14,779 nt of DNA from Terriglobia bacterium (GTDB lineage Bacteria; Acidobacteriota; Terriglobia; UBA7540), in assembly GCA_022866195.1 (NCBI GenBank), contig JALHUF010000522.1, positions 1-14,779 of the forward strand, read 5' to 3'. Under the pieces are notes generated by a model. The model saw only the letters and a program-made list of their open reading frames with translations. It ran no database searches and had not been told where the DNA came from. Made by a program: the position numbers and the translations under genes. This document shows positions 2-10,615 of the stretch, piece after piece; position 1 is the stretch's first letter, and each line of letters begins with the position of its first letter.

Positions 2-442
2 TGGCGCGCGTTTATCGAATCGCTCAACTCCGGCGGAGTTGAGTATCTGATTGTGGGCGCGGTAGCCTTGGCCCACCATGGCTTTCCTCGCTACACGGGC
101 GCTCTCGACATCCTGGTCCGCAACTCCCCTGAGAACGCCCAGCGGCTGGAAGGCGTGCTCCAAAGCTTCGGCTTCAGCGCTCTCGGCCTGAAGGCCGCTG
201 ACTTTATCGGTTCCTACCAGGTGATCCAACTGGGTCTGCCACCTAACCGCATCGACCTGCTAACTTCAATCACCGGCGTCTCGTTCGAGGAAGCTTGGAC
301 GGAAAGAATCGAAGCGGTGCTCGAAGGAATGCGGGTGAACTTCATCGGCCGCCAGGCGCTCATCCAAAACAAGAAAGCTACCCGCCGTCCTCAGGACTTG
401 GCCGACCTCGCGGCCCTCGGCGAGGACGCGCACAGTAAGTAG
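2..442 (+). CDS. Nucleotidyltransferase-fold protein (AbiEii/DUF6036-like), 5' partial, degraded active-site motif
   Basis: The reading frame is open from base 2, so the start lies outside the window; a GTG at 53 falls inside the conserved core and is not the real start. The visible 146 residues show the typical layout of the small DUF6036/AbiEii-like nucleotidyltransferase family: an N-terminal helix, the YLIVG strand, an HGFPRYTG loop, a middle helix, and the C-terminal LIQNKKATRRPQDLADL segment. The family usually has VGG after the strand and D-[IL]-D after the RYTG turn. Here these read VGA and A-L-D, so the second glycine and the first metal-binding aspartate are missing. Family members may be antitoxin-associated or of unknown role. 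The protein may be a non-catalytic homologue or a decaying gene; the C-terminal half is intact. Its stop codon TAG lies inside the GTAG foot of the following repeat. Confidence 0.75.
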   Translation, partial: WRAFIESLNSGGVEYLIVGAVALAHHGFPRYTGALDILVRNSPENAQRLEGVLQSFGFSALGLKAADFIGSYQVIQLGLPPNRIDLLTSITGVSFEEAWTERIEAVLEGMRVNFIGRQALIQNKKATRRPQDLADLAALGEDAHSK

Positions 443-569
443 CGCAGGTCCCGCTCTTTGGACCTGCGGTTCTTGTACGTGCTTGGCGAGGCCCTGCATG
501 GGCCTAATCCCACCGCAAGGGGTCTGGAAAAGCCGCAACCCGTCAACTGACGGACGGGAGTTGCGCTAC
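439..569. repeat. Inverted pair of GTAG-headed palindromes (REP/BIME-like)
   Basis: The first element (439-475, plus orientation) is GTAG followed by stem CGCAGGTCC (443-451), an 8-nt loop and GGACCTGCG (460-468), with tail GTTCTTG. The second (531-569, minus orientation, CTAC foot at 566-569) has outer arms CGCAAC and GTTGCG plus an inner GACGG/CCGTC stem. The head-to-head arrangement with about 60 bp between resembles a BIME. The GC-rich stem directly after the stop codon of the first gene could also slow transcription, but there is no real T-tract. Confidence 0.75.
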
Positions 570-2231: not shown

Positions 2232-3119
2232 TTACTGCACCTCGACTTCAGCCTTTCCCCGACTCACTGCCGCGTTCTCTGCCGCAATCTCGTACTCTAT
2301 CGTCACGATTCCAGGGCGTGGCACTTCTGGGTTGGCCTCGAACCTGATGGCAGCAACCGCATGTGTCGTGCCTGGATGGATGACTGTTGTCGTGTCGCCT
2401 TTGTACTTGGGTGTGTGAAACTCGCTTGTCGTCTGTGGCATCCGCGGCAGCCCCTCGTTACGGTTGCCATCGACCCCATAGTTATCGAGTCGCCAATACT
2501 GAGGGATTTTGAACGCAAGATAGGGAGCACGCGCAAGGCCACCGGCCTCCTCGTTGCGGATTCCAATAACAATCCGCGGTCCAATGGTATGGTCTGGGAT
2601 CATGACGACGCTCAGGTTGGGGAGATCCGCCCCGGGACCCGCACCTATGCGGGCGATCTCGTCCGGATCGGCGGTTGCGGTCGAACTTCCCCTTCGAATG
2701 TAGACAACCTCCTTCTTCAGTTTTCCGAAGTCGGCCCTAAGAAAAATTGGCCGTTCCTGCCTAGGAATGTAGATGATGCCAAGCTGAGCCCCTTCGAAGG
2801 CGAATGCTTCGTACCTGAACTCCACTGGCCGCTGAGATTTGGAGTTTACGAATTGTTGAAGAGCGGCGTCGGCAAGGTGCTGCTGGACTCCCTTCACCTT
2901 CGGGCGACCGCCCCGCACTTCCTCCACACCGATGAGTATGTACGCATCGGCCCGTCGCCAAGCGTTCGCGAGGGCGAGGATGTCCTTAAGGAGTTCGCTC
3001 TTTTCCTCGTCCGTGGCACCACTGAAGGGATATTGGTCAGCCTTGAAATCCAGTGACGCACTCTCTTCCTCGTCAAGCAATTGTTCGATTAGCGCGTCGT
3101 TCATGGATTCGACCTGCAT
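2232..3119 (-). CDS. AlbA_2/Schlafen-type putative DNA- or ATP-binding protein
   Basis: The 295-residue protein begins with an AlbA_2 (divergent AAA-4, Schlafen-type) domain over about residues 10-165. Its markers are ESASLDFKADQYPF at the start, then SELLKDILALANAWR and AYILIGVEEVRGG. Later come HLADAALQQFVN, the strand GIIYIPRQERPIFL, and KEVVYIRRGSSTATADPDEI at the end of the domain. The remaining 125 residues are beta-rich and resemble no family I know. AlbA_2 proteins occur as regulators and in several defence systems, but the role here is unknown. Start sites at 3119 and 3104 are both possible; neither has a good ribosome-binding site. It is a single-gene unit flanked by inverted repeat pairs. 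Confidence 0.85.
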   Translation of the reverse strand: MQVESMNDALIEQLLDEEESASLDFKADQYPFSGATDEEKSELLKDILALANAWRRADAYILIGVEEVRGGRPKVKGVQQHLADAALQQFVNSKSQRPVEFRYEAFAFEGAQLGIIYIPRQERPIFLRADFGKLKKEVVYIRRGSSTATADPDEIARIGAGPGADLPNLSVVMIPDHTIGPRIVIGIRNEEAGGLARAPYLAFKIPQYWRLDNYGVDGNRNEGLPRMPQTTSEFHTPKYKGDTTTVIHPGTTHAVAAIRFEANPEVPRPGIVTIEYEIAAENAAVSRGKAEVEVQ

Positions 3120-3186: not shown

Positions 3187-3280
3187 GTAGCCACGACGAG
3201 TGTTCTTCCCCGTCGTGGGTCTTGGGGTTTCCCCGACGAAGGGTCCACGACGAATCAAACCGCCGATTCGTCGTGGCTAC
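3187..3280. repeat. Inverted pair of GTAG-headed palindromes, CCACGACGA type
   Basis: The plus element has GTAG at 3187-3190 and CCACGACG (3191-3198) paired with CGTCGTGG (3211-3218). The minus element has CCACGACGAAT (3245-3255) paired with ATTCGTCGTGG (3266-3276) and CTAC at 3277-3280. The layout equals that of the pair at 2113-2199 but with GACGA in place of GGCAT arms, so the arms co-vary. The pair lies just upstream of the AlbA_2 gene start, in the first part of a 330-bp gap without genes. Confidence 0.75.
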
Positions 3281-3318: not shown

Positions 3319-3430
3319 GTAGCGCAGAGTTTCGCATCCCAGAAACTCTGCCCTGCACCGTCCGGTGCAGGACTGTGCGGCTCTTGTGATGGGAAGGACC
3401 GCAGAGTCCGAAAAAGCCGAACTCCGCACC
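3319..3430. repeat. Inverted pair of REP-like palindromes with conserved linker and an extra inserted hairpin
   Basis: The plus element has GTAG at 3319-3322 and GCAGAGTTTC (3325-3333 region) paired with GAAACTCTGC (3342-3351). Where the GGCTCTT tail should follow, an additional palindrome CCTGCACCG/CGGTGCAGG (3352-3371) intervenes before GCGGCTCTTG. The linker GCTCTTGTGATGGGAAGGAC matches the one near 1447-1466. The minus element (CGCAGAGTCCG 3400-3410 with CGAACTCCGC 3418-3427) has lost its CTAC foot. Confidence 0.7.
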
Positions 3431-3453: not shown

Positions 3454-4047
3454 CTAGTGCCTGCCCCATTCGGTGAACAGTTCGCCGCCTCGTTTCGCCT
3501 CAGCTTCAAACTTCAGGTGCTTCGTGACGAGGTTCGTCACCATAAAGACTGCGCTGGTGCTGCAGCGAACCACTTCGATGATCTCGTCGTCGTTGTAGTC
3601 CGGCTTGAGGTCGTGACCGTCGAACCGCCTTGCGAGCTGAAAAGTACCTGAATGCGTATAGCTGTGGAGCGCCGTTCGGCGGTCGTCCAGGAAGTTCGTA
3701 AAGAGCCCGTCAAGCCCGAACGCTGTGTCAATTTGAGATCCGATCTTCTCGAAGTTGACTCTGTACTCGTCCTCCCGAATCTCGCGCACATCCTCGTCCG
3801 AACCCATCAACACCACATGTGAGCGCACCAGTGCTTCGACAACCGGGCGGACGAGTGCAAACGCACCTCCGCAGAGGCCATTTGATAGGAGGCCCAGAAT
3901 GCTCTTGTGGTAGTCAAACAGGAGAGCCCAGTACCCGAGGAGCAGTATGTTCCGGTCGTCGTCGGGACACTGACCGATCCGAACGACAACCTCCTCGAGT
4001 TGTTCACCGAGGTGCCGTGCTTTGACGATCTCGTCTTGAACGCTCAT
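3454..4047 (-). CDS. DUF6988-like hypothetical protein
   Basis: The product from ATG 4047 is 197 residues, mostly helical and soluble. Features resembling the DUF6988 group are the helix LLLGYWALLFDYHKSILGLL, the segment CGGAFALVRPVVEALVRSHVV split over about residues 59-79, the HSYTHSGTFQLARRF motif near residue 128-141, and the repeated acidic DYNDDEIIEVV helix. The frame continues upstream without a stop for another 213 codons, but that part translates repeats and a decayed transposase end, so I exclude it. The ribosome-binding site is weak (AGGCGA). Molecular function is unknown. It is isolated between repeat clusters. Confidence 0.65.
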   Translation of the reverse strand: MSVQDEIVKARHLGEQLEEVVVRIGQCPDDDRNILLLGYWALLFDYHKSILGLLSNGLCGGAFALVRPVVEALVRSHVVLMGSDEDVREIREDEYRVNFEKIGSQIDTAFGLDGLFTNFLDDRRTALHSYTHSGTFQLARRFDGHDLKPDYNDDEIIEVVRCSTSAVFMVTNLVTKHLKFEAEAKRGGELFTEWGRH

Positions 4048-4068: not shown

Positions 4069-4165
4069 GTAGCGCAGACCTCGCGTTTGAGGTCTGCGGC
4101 TCTTTGCCCGTGTGATGGGAACCGCGTAGCGCAGGCCTGGCCTTGCAGGTGCGCGGCTTTTTGCC
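4069..4165 (+). repeat. Two direct REP-like palindromes upstream of the DUF6988-like gene
   Basis: The first is GTAG (4069-4072) with CGCAGACCT (4073-4081) paired to AGGTCTGCG (4090-4098) and tail GCTCTTTGCCCG. The second (4126-4165) is GTAG with a degenerate stem and tail GGCTTTTTGCCG. The first is almost identical to the element at 4535-4575 beside the intact transposase; only the loop and tail differ. Confidence 0.75.
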
Positions 4166-4195
4166 GAATGCGCGGGCAGGCCCGCCCCATTCGAA

Positions 4196-4313
4196 TCATA
4201 TTCGCGCCTTCGGCTCGGCGGGCAGACCGACGCGATCGATCGTGAGGCCGCACCGCCGCTCTTGCTCCCCCGCGTCCCCGCCCGAATACTCCAGCACGCT
4301 CGACCATCGCCAG
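4196..4313 (-). pseudogene. Truncated, decayed copy of the RAYT transposase 3' end
   Basis: These 118 bases align without gaps to 4601-4718, the 3' end of the intact RAYT gene; I count 15 mismatches by eye. The copy covers the C-terminal stretch after the DWRWSS motif. Upstream of it (higher coordinates) the similarity stops abruptly at the bases corresponding to that motif. It has the same order as the intact locus, a GTAG palindrome followed by the transposase tail, so a repeat-plus-transposase unit was duplicated and the second copy then eroded. The adjoining 4314-4474 shows nothing I recognise. Confidence 0.8.
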
Positions 4314-4506: not shown

Positions 4507-4534
4507 AAGAGCAGGGGCTGGAAGCGGGTAGCGG

Positions 4535-4575
4535 GTAGCGCAGACCTCGCCTTTGAGGTCTGCGGCTCTTTCCCG
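4535..4575 (+). repeat. REP-like palindrome directly downstream of the transposase gene
   Basis: GTAG (4535-4538) is followed by CGCAGACCT (4539-4547), a loop, AGGTCTGCG (4556-4564) and tail GCTCTTTCCCG. The foot region is partially duplicated (GCGGGTAGCGGGTAG). The element lies 25 bp beyond the transposase stop codon. With the cluster at 5176-5274 it brackets the gene, the usual arrangement of RAYT genes with their cognate repeats. Confidence 0.8.
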
Positions 4576-4600
4576 AACGGGTGGGCCTGTGCGAGGGGGG

Positions 4601-5122
4601 TCATATTCGCGCCTTCGGCTCGGCGGGCAGGCGGACCCGATCGATGGCGAGCCCGCAGCGCCGCTCTTGCTCCCCAGCGTCGTCACCTGAATACTCCAGG
4701 ATACTCGACCATCGCCAGTCCTGCGGTCGCGCGACCAGTCCGCGCCGCACCGGATTGAGGTGAATGTATTCCACCTTTTCGTTGTATTCCTTCACCGTCC
4801 TCAGGGCGCGATCGAAGAAGCGCCCTTGCCAGAGTTCCGCCGCTTCTCCCCGGCGCCCATTGATCAGAATCATGGAACTCAGCTTCACGGCTTTCATGGC
4901 CTGCGAGACGGTCAGCGGATCGGGAGGGTAGAGAATGGCGTGCCAGTGGTCGGGCAGAAAAACCCAGGCGGTGAGCCGGAATCCCTGCCGCTGGCGCGCC
5001 TCGCGCAGGGCCTCGGCGAGAAGCCGAAAATCCCCCTCCACCATTTCCGTTCTTCCCTTGAGTAGCCGAACCGTGAGGAAGAAATATCGGTCCGAGAGGA
5101 AAGGACGCCGCAGCCGCGACAC
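4601..5122 (-). CDS. REP-associated tyrosine transposase (RAYT, Y1/IS200-like superfamily)
   Basis: The 173-residue protein is a complete RAYT (TnpA_REP). The HUH-type metal motif is H59-W60-H61 within FLPDHWHAIL. The WQGRFFDRAL segment follows at about residues 98-107. The catalytic tyrosine is Y119 in EYIHLNPVRRGLV, and DWRWSS at 135-140 completes the family signature. Family members cut and rejoin single-stranded DNA at hairpins flanked by a GTAG or GGAG tetranucleotide and are thought to spread REP elements; they are usually single-copy, non-self-mobile genes. GTAG palindromes flank this gene on both sides and recur across the window. The start is GTG 5122, with no evident ribosome-binding site, which suggests low expression. 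Confidence 0.93.
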   Translation of the reverse strand: MSRLRRPFLSDRYFFLTVRLLKGRTEMVEGDFRLLAEALREARQRQGFRLTAWVFLPDHWHAILYPPDPLTVSQAMKAVKLSSMILINGRRGEAAELWQGRFFDRALRTVKEYNEKVEYIHLNPVRRGLVARPQDWRWSSILEYSGDDAGEQERRCGLAIDRVRLPAEPKARI

Positions 5123-5175
5123 GGAAGGAGACTACCGCAAAAAGAGCAGCGTTTCCAGAAGAGCCGCAGCAGCAG

Positions 5176-5274
5176 GTAGCGCGGACTGGGACTTTAAAGT
5201 CCGCGGCCTTTCGCCGGGTTTAAATGTCAATTTCTTTTAAGACCCGCAGACCTCAAAAGCGAGGTCTGCGCTAC
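5176..5274. repeat. Inverted pair of REP-like palindromes upstream of the transposase gene
   Basis: The plus element has GTAG (5176-5179) and CGCGGACT (5180-5187) paired with AGTCCGCG (5198-5205), with tail GCCTTTCGCCGGG. The minus element has CGCAGACCTC (5245-5254) paired with GAGGTCTGCG (5261-5270) and CTAC (5271-5274). The second is the inverted counterpart of the 4535-4575 element, so near-identical palindromes in opposite orientation bracket the transposase. Confidence 0.8.
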
Positions 5275-5278
5275 CCCT

Positions 5279-5363
5279 GTAGCGGCGGCGTCCTCGCCGC
5301 CGGATTGTTGCGACGATGGGGACATCGCCGCTACAGTTGCACCGGTGAGGACACCGGCGCTAC
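5279..5363. repeat. Three GTAG-headed palindromes with short TCCT-type loops
   Basis: The plus element has GTAG (5279-5282) and CGGCGGCG (5283-5290), loop TCCT, CGCCGCCG (5295-5302). Two minus elements follow. CGACGATG (5311-5318) faces CATCGCCG (5323-5330) with CTAC at 5331-5334. CCGGTG (5342-5347) faces CACCGG (5352-5357) with CTAC near 5360-5363. Arms differ between the three, but two share the TCCT/AGGA loop and all keep the foot. The cluster ends 7 bp before the -35 box of the next gene. Confidence 0.8.
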
Positions 5364-9963: not shown

Positions 9964-10126
9964 GGCACGGATTTACCTGTCCCGATGTTCTCGATCGGGA
10001 TCCGTGCCAACGCGCACTCGCTTAGAGATGATTGCCGGGCTTCAGTCCCTGAGGCCCCAGGGCCTAAAGGCCGTGGAAGGGGGTCCCGCGTTACGGCGCG
10101 ACTGAAGTCGTGCCCTGACGCGCTAC
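9964..10126. repeat. Nested hairpin and GTAG-headed palindrome after the small conserved gene
   Basis: GGCACGGAT (9964-9972) pairs with ATCCGTGCC (10000-10008) and encloses a second stem CCCGAT/ATCGGG (9981-9986, 9994-9999). A minus-oriented element ends with CTAC at 10123-10126; its stem is GGCGCGACT (10095-10103) against AGTCGTGCC (10106-10114), with one mismatch. Between them is GGCCCCAGGGCC-type sequence. No gene is seen here. Confidence 0.6.
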
Positions 10127-10353
10127 GGCGGGAAATTCCGGCGGCGGGTAGGGGAGGGCCTTCATGGCCCTCCCGTTTCGATTGAAGTGCGGGAGCACCG
10201 TAAAGGTGCTCCCCTACAAGAATTCCACGGTGGGAAATTCATGCGGCCTGTAGGGGAGGGCCGGCGCCTGTCCCGACCTCGTCGGGGCGGCCCTCCCGCG
10301 GGAGCACCGCAAGGGTGCTCCCCTACCACAACATCACGGCGGAAAGTTCATGC
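10125..10353. repeat. Composite repeat of GTAGGGGAG palindromes in inverted pairs
   Basis: Three copies of an ACGGCGGGAAATTC-like motif (10125, 10227, 10336) punctuate two composite units. Each unit has a plus palindrome GTAG-GGGAGGGCC/GGCCCTCCC (from 10148 and from 10250) followed by a minus palindrome GGGAGCACC/GGTGCTCCC with CTAC foot (10214-10217 and near 10323-10326). The second plus palindrome carries a longer loop containing another hairpin. This is a tandem duplication of an inverted-pair element about 102-109 bp long. Confidence 0.75.
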
Positions 10354-10430
10354 GGCGCAGGAGGTCCTGGAAGCGCGGGTCGGAGCGCAGTTCGGACCGG
10401 CCGACTACTCCCCCGCCCGACCACCCCTTG

Positions 10431-10615
10431 CTCCCCTCCTGAACCAGGAGGGGAACCCGTCACCACCCCTTGCTCCCCTCCTAACCTAGGAGGGGAAACC
10501 GTTTGTACTCCCCCCCTAACCGAGGAGGGGAAACCGCTTGTACTCCCCCCCTAACCTAGGAGGGGAAACCACCTGTACTCCCCTCCTCTCCGAGGAGGGG
10601 GTCAGGGGGTGGTGA
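10431..10615 (+). repeat. Five-copy array of CTCCCCTCC/GGAGGGG hairpins
   Basis: Units begin at 10431, 10473, 10508, 10543 and 10578, giving periods of 42, 35, 35 and 35 bp. Each is a palindrome CCCCTCC-(4 to 6 nt)-GGAGGGG followed by a spacer such as AAACCGYTTGTA. The spacers are themselves repeated, so this is a tandem palindrome array and not a CRISPR. It directly abuts the kinase relic on its right. Confidence 0.8.

Follow-up and report, generated by a model that had tools for sequence, protein, structure and literature searches.

Does the gene for a RAYT (REP-associated tyrosine transposase) found in this DNA, together with the palindromes that stand on either side of it with a GTAG foot, form a REP/RAYT system? 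The stretch analysed (hereafter, the window) is the whole of contig C416, with 14,779 bases, from a genome of 3.58 Mb in 727 contigs, 85% complete. An earlier note on the same DNA had proposed a candidate REP/RAYT system, and the proposal was borne out, since the hairpins occur in many copies outside genes and are linked to RAYTs; we consider it very likely that they belong to a REP/RAYT system of an Acidobacteriota lineage, working by the mechanism proposed below. The features needed in what follows are:

4601-5122, minus strand: RAYT gene including the stop codon, with a GTG start, 173 amino acids (aa), H59-W60-H61 and Y119.
4535-4570, plus strand: REP at the RAYT gene's 3' end, with a GTAG foot, a stem of 10 bp, a loop of 6 nt and the tail GCTCTT, reading GTAG.CGCAGACCTC.gccttt.GAGGTCTGCG.GCTCTT; same place and orientation in the C336 copy.
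4566-4567, plus strand: candidate cleavage site, the CT dinucleotide one base past the stem, placed by analogy with the CT cleavage of PMC8266576.
5176-5211, plus strand: REP with stem CGCGGACT, left half of a REPIN (hairpin scans).
5239-5274, minus strand: REP with stem CGCAGACCTC, right half of the 5176 REPIN and right-hand palindrome of the earlier note, reading GTAG.CGCAGACCTC.gctttt.GAGGTCTGCG.GGTCTT.
About 5157-5170, minus strand: REP remnant (3' half and tail), from alignment; in the C336 and C35 copies, the corresponding REP stands about 43 nt upstream of the RAYT gene.
4069-4104, plus strand: further REP of the RAYT-flanking class, situated 22 nt ahead of the start codon of the minus-strand gene at 3454-4047.
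4126-4161, plus strand: partly decayed REP of the same class as the 4069 REP (pattern and fold).
4173-4313, minus strand: relic of a second RAYT, its last 39 codons (protein 87% identical).
439-474, plus strand: REP with the CGCAGGTCC stem, overlapping a stop codon by 4 bases.
1393-1498: REP pair, 1393 (plus, foot decayed to ATAG) and 1498 (minus), from the hairpin scan.
2113-2199: REPIN of the CCACGG class (hairpin scans).
3187-3280: REPIN of the CCACGACG class (hairpin scans).
3319-3352, plus strand: REP with stem CGCAGAGTTTC, outermost pair broken (hairpin scans).
5279-5302, plus strand: GTAG hairpin of the CGGCGGCG class, a third class (hairpin scans).
10148-10217: REPIN of the GGGAG class, stems GGGAGGGCC and GGGAGCACC (hairpin scans).
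10250-10326: second pair of the GGGAG class, left hairpin with a 24-nt loop (hairpin scan).

The RAYT proved to be complete, with the HWH motif and catalytic tyrosine that had been claimed for it: the 173-aa protein matches NF047646 at 111.2 bits, above the curated cut-off of 80, and matches PF01797 of the Y1 transposase family. Its nearest solved protein by sequence is 4er8, the E. coli TnpAREP bound to a REP hairpin (E value 5.7e-19), which is also the best PDB match (TM 0.73/0.76) of an AlphaFold2 model with a pLDDT of 93.1, transposases of the IS200/IS605 type ranking behind it. In an alignment of 24 RAYTs, residues H59, W60, H61, Y119, N123, Q99 and R108 were invariant, and D104 was present in 23. 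The stretch Y119-I-H-L-N-P carries the class 2 signature Y---NP and not the Y---Q of IS200, a distinction drawn in PMC6006769. Of the E. coli TnpAREP residues that PMC6006769 and PMC8266576 name among the GTAG contacts, Q95, E100 and R104 correspond in the alignment to Q99, D104 and R108 of the window RAYT; the C-terminal foot contacts of the E. coli protein, G160/E161, showed no clear conservation in the 24 aligned RAYTs. None of the rows for subclasses 2.1-2.8 in the part of Table 1 of PMC6006769 that was consulted matches the motif set D-HWH / WQ / YIHLNP; the middle HUH residues there are L, V, I, F, Y and M, and Trp is absent. The HWH RAYTs are probably a lineage of their own. The presumed origin in an Acidobacteriota genome was likewise upheld: among the best 80 of 212 loci, 46 of the 48 listed at an identity of at least 40% have source titles naming Acidobacteria, Acidobacteriota, Acidobacteriaceae or Terriglobia, the two others being L186, from a record titled Acidimicrobiia, and L229, a partial match from Lysobacteraceae. 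Among the 120 listed of 2221 matches, the few homologues with an organism in the source name were Acidobacteriota or Terriglobia too. The RAYT of L186, an actinobacterial metagenome-assembled genome by its title, is 57% identical to that of the window and reflects either lateral transfer or a misbinned contig.

The two palindromes beside the gene are both real, near-identical and opposite in orientation, as the earlier note had described them: they are part of a 38-nt inverted repeat, 95% complementary, and each consists of GTAG, a ten-pair stem, a six-nt loop and a short tail. The feet stay at 4535 and 5274, and the stem ends were corrected to 4564 and 5245. In both cases the GTAG foot stands unpaired at the base of a palindrome of 20-40 nt, as in the GTAG REP superfamily, and the copies are many and extragenic, with 38 matches to the CGCA-class pattern in the own genome in addition to other classes. 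The window holds 15 GTAG feet with a directly adjoining perfect stem of at least 8 bp (loop 3-12), far beyond the chance level of its dinucleotide shuffles (mean 0.025 and maximum 1 in 200 shuffles). In a looser scan of the window, GTAG came out as the top hairpin foot among all 256 tetramers (19 of 87 GTAGs vs 1100 of 29,552 for all feet); of 17 hairpins listed by another scan, none lay mostly within a CDS, our own CDS list covering 68% of the window; the hairpin counts of 19, 14, 17 and 15 used for the window come from four scans with different rules. The stems fall into the classes CGCR (that of the RAYT), CCAC, CGGC and GGGAG. REPINs, that is, two inverted REPs at a set spacing with their feet outward, were found at 2113/2199, 3187/3280, 5176/5274 and 10148/10217, and REP pairs with weaker or long-loop members at 1393/1498 and 10250/10326. 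No Rfam family matched the window at gathering thresholds. The unusual density of repeats that had been noted holds for the window, with 14 GTAG hairpins in 14.8 kb by the strictest scan, and fails genome-wide, with 7 in about 76.5 kb of the own genome (15 unmasked of 20 contigs sampled), the window being about 10 times denser than the other contigs. The five remaining contigs of the sample (C125, C160, C195, C440 and C475) read as N, with no G or C, and were included in the base total of one scan.

Two further copies of the gene in the same genome clarified the architecture. The undisturbed layout is seen in the C336 copy (protein 91% identical), where a plus-strand REP, 43 nt, the gene, 43 nt and a minus-strand REP follow one another with the GTAG feet outward; in the third copy, C35 (65%), the upstream REP lies at the same distance as in C336. 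In the window, the upstream REP is reduced to a remnant of its 3' part, and a complete REPIN (5176+/5274-) stands there instead, whose outer half is the 5' bracket at 5274, 123 nt from the RAYT gene. The description of the gene as bracketed by palindromes therefore stands as regards flanking GTAG hairpins and had to be amended as regards the right-hand one, which is half of a REPIN beside a truncated REP. Window and C336 are 90% identical over 4530-5169, through the gene and the 3' REP, and their homology ends at the CTAC foot in the alignment (the BLAST match extends 5 nt more). The unit 5171-5274 recurs with 88% identity at positions 1565-1668 of C336, at a different site on the opposite side of the gene, and the limits of the shared REPIN are one foot exactly and, on the other side, a point 5 nt past the foot. 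The relic of a RAYT 3' end with its REP (4126-4313) occurs in the own genome only beside the C416 and C336 RAYTs; being confined to the neighbourhood of two RAYTs, it was rejected as a dispersed element. Incorporation of rayt 3' ends into BIMEs is mentioned in a supplement legend of PMC2817692. Among 44 named loci with RAYTs at an identity of at least 38% (250 nt on each side, strict hairpins), GTAG hairpins were present on both sides in 21 and on at least one side in 31.

Which parts of the hairpin are constant was examined in the CGCA class, using 149 of the 150 listed rows (one with an N omitted) of 401 matches, 136 of them distinct. The GTAG foot and the basal stem are constant, and the five pairs above them vary while remaining complementary: pairing of the upper stem is no condition of the search pattern, and yet the five pairs above CGCA were perfect in 102 of the 136 distinct elements and had one mismatch in 25, with 41 different five-letter stems. 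When arms were shuffled among these 136 elements, perfect upper pairing fell to a mean of 10 (maximum 19). Single mismatches were G.T in 7 of 25 cases and A.C in another 7 of 25, and this equality gives no hint of pairing as RNA on one strand. Tails of the CGCR and CCNC classes read G, CT and then pyrimidines (G-CT-YTT) after the stem. The first CT was found at that offset in 60 of 109 CGCR and 18 of 42 CCNC tails, vs 3 of 24 for CGGC/CGCC and 1 of 13 for GGG, so that the CT tail is not characteristic of CGGC and GGG hairpins. The TnpAREP proteins of E. coli and Stenotrophomonas cut at CT in vitro (PMC8266576), and in assays of the E. coli protein GTAG was essential and the upper stem non-specific in sequence, albeit structurally needed (PMC8266576). 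By analogy, a fixed foot and base with a free, paired upper stem would reflect requirements like those found in the assays, and the window RAYT would read the GTAG foot and the base of the stem.

The distribution of hairpins across genomes points to the same partnership. The CGCA-class pattern gave 401 matches in 39 family genomes (31 with at least one), and its reversed control gave 2. Genomes with more RAYT matches tended to have more hairpins (Spearman 0.61, p 3e-5, 39 genomes). In 25 genomes the best match to the window RAYT had been scored; the 11 in which it reached at least 130 bits had 3-66 CGCA hairpins, vs 0-12 in the 14 others (p 0.001). The earlier note had stated that equal frequency of the palindromes in relatives without a RAYT would speak against the system. 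Taking 'RAYT-free' as no NF047646 match at E 0.001, the four such family genomes had 0, 0, 1 and 2 CGCA-class hairpins (one of them, G046, is only 58% complete), so that the palindromes are mostly not as frequent there, the qualification being that RAYT-free G006 keeps another class. G006, a genus mate of G022, has 12 CCGCGAC-class hairpins among the matches listed, and one place matching the REPIN pattern; because these hairpins persist in it, REPs seem to outlast their transposase gene. In sampled stretches, GTAGs with a hairpin numbered 7 of 392 in the own genome, 5 of 326 in G022, 3 of 373 in G009 and 2 of 597 in G006, and none among the 557, 520, 393 and 351 GTAGs of RAYT-free G001, G014, G036 and G039. 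Exceptions run in both directions. G040, with 16 RAYT matches, had no hairpin at 361 GTAGs in the 100 kb sampled, and the pattern scan found no CGCA hairpins in G010, G018, G024 and G043, which have RAYTs; 12 CGCA hairpins each were found without an intact near RAYT in G015, whose RAYT matches are all weak, and in G020, which has a distant RAYT in intact form and one of the near kind as a fragment. Comparison of a G022 REPIN with G006, G048 and G049 of the same genus, in search of an empty site, returned only non-syntenic gene matches and hairpin matches, and gave no evidence of movement because the flanks were non-syntenic.

At the scale of single loci, 57 named ones with RAYTs at an identity of at least 38% had 79 GTAG feet in the 21.3 kb within 200 nt of the RAYT genes and 17 in the 88.4 kb more than 500 nt away, and GTAG made up 79 of the 216 hairpin feet near RAYTs. 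At least one strict GTAG hairpin stood within 250 nt of the RAYT in 39 of these 57 loci, vs 3 of 23 more distant loci; the 18 loci at which none was found within 250 nt include some with short flanks or imperfect stems, and L170 (RAYT at 52%) is an example of an exception among loci at an identity of at least 41%. On a tree of 49 RAYTs, with some long branches and several weak forks and with 'none' treated as a class, hairpin class changed 11 times vs a shuffled mean of 27.3 (none of 200 shuffles as low), and RAYT lineages therefore tend to keep their own hairpin class, as reported for Stenotrophomonas in PMC2817692.

The whole-REPIN pattern with CGCA ends was found at 128 places in 25 of 39 genomes, vs 3 places for the reversed control, and in the RAYT loci collected, REP pairs were head-to-head in 44 cases, tail-to-tail in 15 and tandem in 26. 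Partners were compared in 74 of the 75 listed REPINs (one with an N omitted) of the 128, of which 11 without a hairpin on both sides were dropped, leaving 63. They differed within the five upper pairs in 52 and agreed in 11; only one pair was identical over seven letters. Re-pairing of REPs within genomes (without effect in 8 of the 16 genomes, which have a single REPIN) gave 10.5 expected vs 11 observed agreements for five letters, 5.9 vs 6 for six, and 4.2 vs 1 for seven (P 0.029), so that only agreement over seven letters is below chance. REPs flanking a RAYT, about 600 nt apart, agreed in nine arm letters in 13 of 23 pairs vs 11 of 63 REPINs (Fisher p 0.0008, a value made optimistic by sequence kinship; the spanning pairs are of mixed classes, the REPINs all CGCA). 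A first comparison over eight letters gave 11 of 33 REPINs vs 16 of 23 RAYT-spanning pairs (p 0.014), or 9 of 27 vs 12 of 18 distinct combinations (p 0.037); as those 33 REPINs are biased to RAYT neighbourhoods, the figures of the pattern scan (n = 63) carry more weight. Folded as single-stranded DNA, 17 of the 33 REPINs preferred two separate hairpins and 16 one long hairpin, and when given like stems all 33 switched to the long hairpin, as they must. REPIN partners looked dimorphic (T/C) at their fifth upper pair, in 21 of 30, but the pattern was not retained, as it came to 13 of 19 distinct combinations (p 0.11).

The preference of REP dimers for heterodimers has been described as without 'obvious explanation' in PMC3733652, where removal of long hairpins is discussed, and PMC3116915 proposes that the long form is not recognised by RAYTs. 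We tentatively suggest, as an explanation more doubtful than probable, that selection keeps the REPIN as a heterodimer and that the upper stem is a freely drifting, self-complementary label. One RAYT would then accept any REP with a GTAG foot and the shared basal stem; unlike upper stems would let each REP fold alone, in the form that the RAYT could cut, whereas a long hairpin formed between partners would obstruct the RAYT and be prone to deletion. Two REPs with a RAYT gene between them would be too distant for such a rule to apply and would stay alike. The REPIN data agree with the rule without proving it; if true, it would answer the question of PMC3733652 as to why REP dimers are so often heterodimers.

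The recognition, cleavage site, movement and reason for heterodimers that we infer for the whole system can be summarized as follows. The hairpins are, on the sequence evidence, very probably recognised by the window RAYT. Each REP, when in single-stranded DNA, would fold into a hairpin with an unpaired 5' GTAG, and the RAYT would read this foot together with the lowest three or four pairs of the stem (here CGC/GCG). The HWH motif and Tyr119 would make a cut next to the hairpin, most likely at CT in the G-CT-YTT tail, and the ends would be joined elsewhere. REPINs (two REPs, feet outward, about 75-100 nt) would be spread by the RAYT in this way, as might an occasional REP-RAYT-REP unit in which the gene lies between two outward-facing REPs. 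The upper stem would need only to pair and could therefore change freely by matched substitutions; unlike upper stems within a REPIN would favour folding of each REP on itself rather than with its partner.

Other explanations differ in what they make of the hairpins and of the protein. If the hairpins were host elements, intrinsic terminators or mRNA-stabilising RNA hairpins selected on transcripts to which the RAYT is incidental, their intergenic position and the T-rich tail of two classes would be accounted for, and five GTAG/ATAG hairpin places (439, 838, 1393, 2199 and 10148) also passed a terminator scan, which in total returned 19 terminator-like sites in the window vs 14.0 in shuffles. 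However, a terminator has no use for a conserved foot, basal stem and, in two classes, tail; the hairpins cluster at RAYT genes and vary with RAYT lineage, some stand upstream of genes, the equal G.T and A.C mismatches show no one-strand RNA wobble and Rfam gave no match at gathering thresholds, all of which makes this explanation improbable. It is hardly credible that the palindromes are unrelated repeats, such as the long terminal inverted repeats (TIRs) of a TIRYT, with GTAG present by chance. Tyrosine transposases of Acidobacteria with TIRs unrelated to GTAG do appear in PMC3733652, and a RAYT on C501 of the own genome has non-GTAG palindromes; but the window RAYT lacks long TIRs of that kind, and for its lineage the explanation is already contradicted by the rank of GTAG as top foot of 256, its share of the feet near RAYTs (79 of 216) and the 0.025 expected from shuffles.

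A more serious contender, though we still put it somewhat below even chances, is that the RAYT is a domesticated host protein, serving chromosome maintenance or regulation by binding REPs and seldom if ever moving them, the spread of REPs being past. TnpAREP is called domesticated in PMC8266576, and the dN/dS of 0.165 between the window and C336 copies (0.172 for the second value) indicates that the protein has been under purifying selection since the copies parted. An active transposase is equally compatible with purifying selection, however, and three open copies of the window type at unrelated sites of one genome (window, C336 and C35), together with RAYT fragments and the 3'-end relic, look like turnover.

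GTAG REPs, RAYTs and REPINs are already known, and the closest described system is that of E. coli TnpAREP (4er8, with REPs and BIMEs; Bertels group 2, subclass 2.2). It shares with the present one the Y1 fold, HUH motif plus Tyr, the GTAG foot, the aligned contact residues Q95/Q99 and R104/R108, REPs in opposite orientation on either side of the gene, and an upper stem that is non-specific in the published assays there and variable in sequence here. It differs in that identity is only about 25-31%, HMH stands in place of HWH, E100 is D in 23 and H101 is R in 20 of the 24 aligned RAYTs, and E. coli REPs carry a bulge whereas the stems here are regular, with G160/E161 contacts not clearly conserved. 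In the GTAG REPs of Stenotrophomonas maltophilia (SMAG), which go with group 3 RAYTs (PMC3733652, PMC8266576), GTAG likewise directly precedes a perfect stem, and SMAG also has several stem types per genome and inverted dimers, some of them hybrid; in the SMAG REP assayed, the stem is 8 bp long and the loop has 3 nt, one base of which is critical, whereas stems here are about 8-11 bp, loops mostly 6-8 nt, and the main classes have the G-CT-YTT tail. The REPINs of Pseudomonas fluorescens SBW25 (PMC3116915) are likewise units of two inverted REPs and a spacer tied to a RAYT; there, REPs are highly conserved and compensatory changes lie in the spacer, whereas here such changes are found in each REP's upper stem, and partners are usually unlike. 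TIRYTs of Acidobacteria (PMC3733652) come from the same phylum and have Y1 tyrosine transposase genes, but with long non-GTAG TIRs.

The remark in the earlier note that REPs are best described in Gammaproteobacteria needs some widening. RAYTs with abundant REPs were found only in that group in PMC2817692, and tagged REPs (GTAG or CGTC) are reported from eight phyla in PMC3733652, in the available part of which Acidobacteria are named only for TIRYTs (RAYT-like genes with other repeats). PMC6006769 lists class 3 Y1 proteins for Acidobacteria, and PMC12306157 gives loose palindrome counts for three Acidobacteria genomes, the words RAYT and transposase being absent from its text. No description of GTAG REP/RAYT pairs in Acidobacteria was found in the literature searched, mostly open-access main texts. 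The present results would extend this pairing to a large Acidobacteriota group with its own HWH lineage of RAYTs, making many natural hairpin-enzyme pairs available for learning what RAYTs read. The contrast between close REP pairs, with mostly unlike upper stems, and RAYT-spanning ones, often alike, makes the heterodimer puzzle assayable by cleavage.

Some neighbouring genes and other repeats of the window may also be recorded. Two minus-strand genes match PADLOC candidate phage-defence models, 2232-3119 with PDC-S50 (2.4e-17; also Schlafen AlbA_2) and 3454-4047 with PDC-S52 (1.3e-11; also DUF6988), and the REPs at 4069 and 4126 lie directly upstream of the latter. Non-GTAG palindromes of the GGGGCTAAAGCCCC / GACTGAAGTC type occur at 10031-10125 of the window and at 1260-2000 of L156; they flank the distant RAYT on C501 and are scattered in the window too, and are perhaps the repeat family of that RAYT. 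Tandem GTAGCGGCGGGTTTACCCCGCCA hairpins also stand on both sides of another distant RAYT, that of C171 (L157 1210-1380 and 1910-2080); their C.A mismatch at the stem base made strict scans miss them. Finally, positions 10420-10610 of the window hold tandem CTCCCCTCCTNACCNAGGAGGGGA palindromes at a spacing of 35-42, some with GTAC in front.
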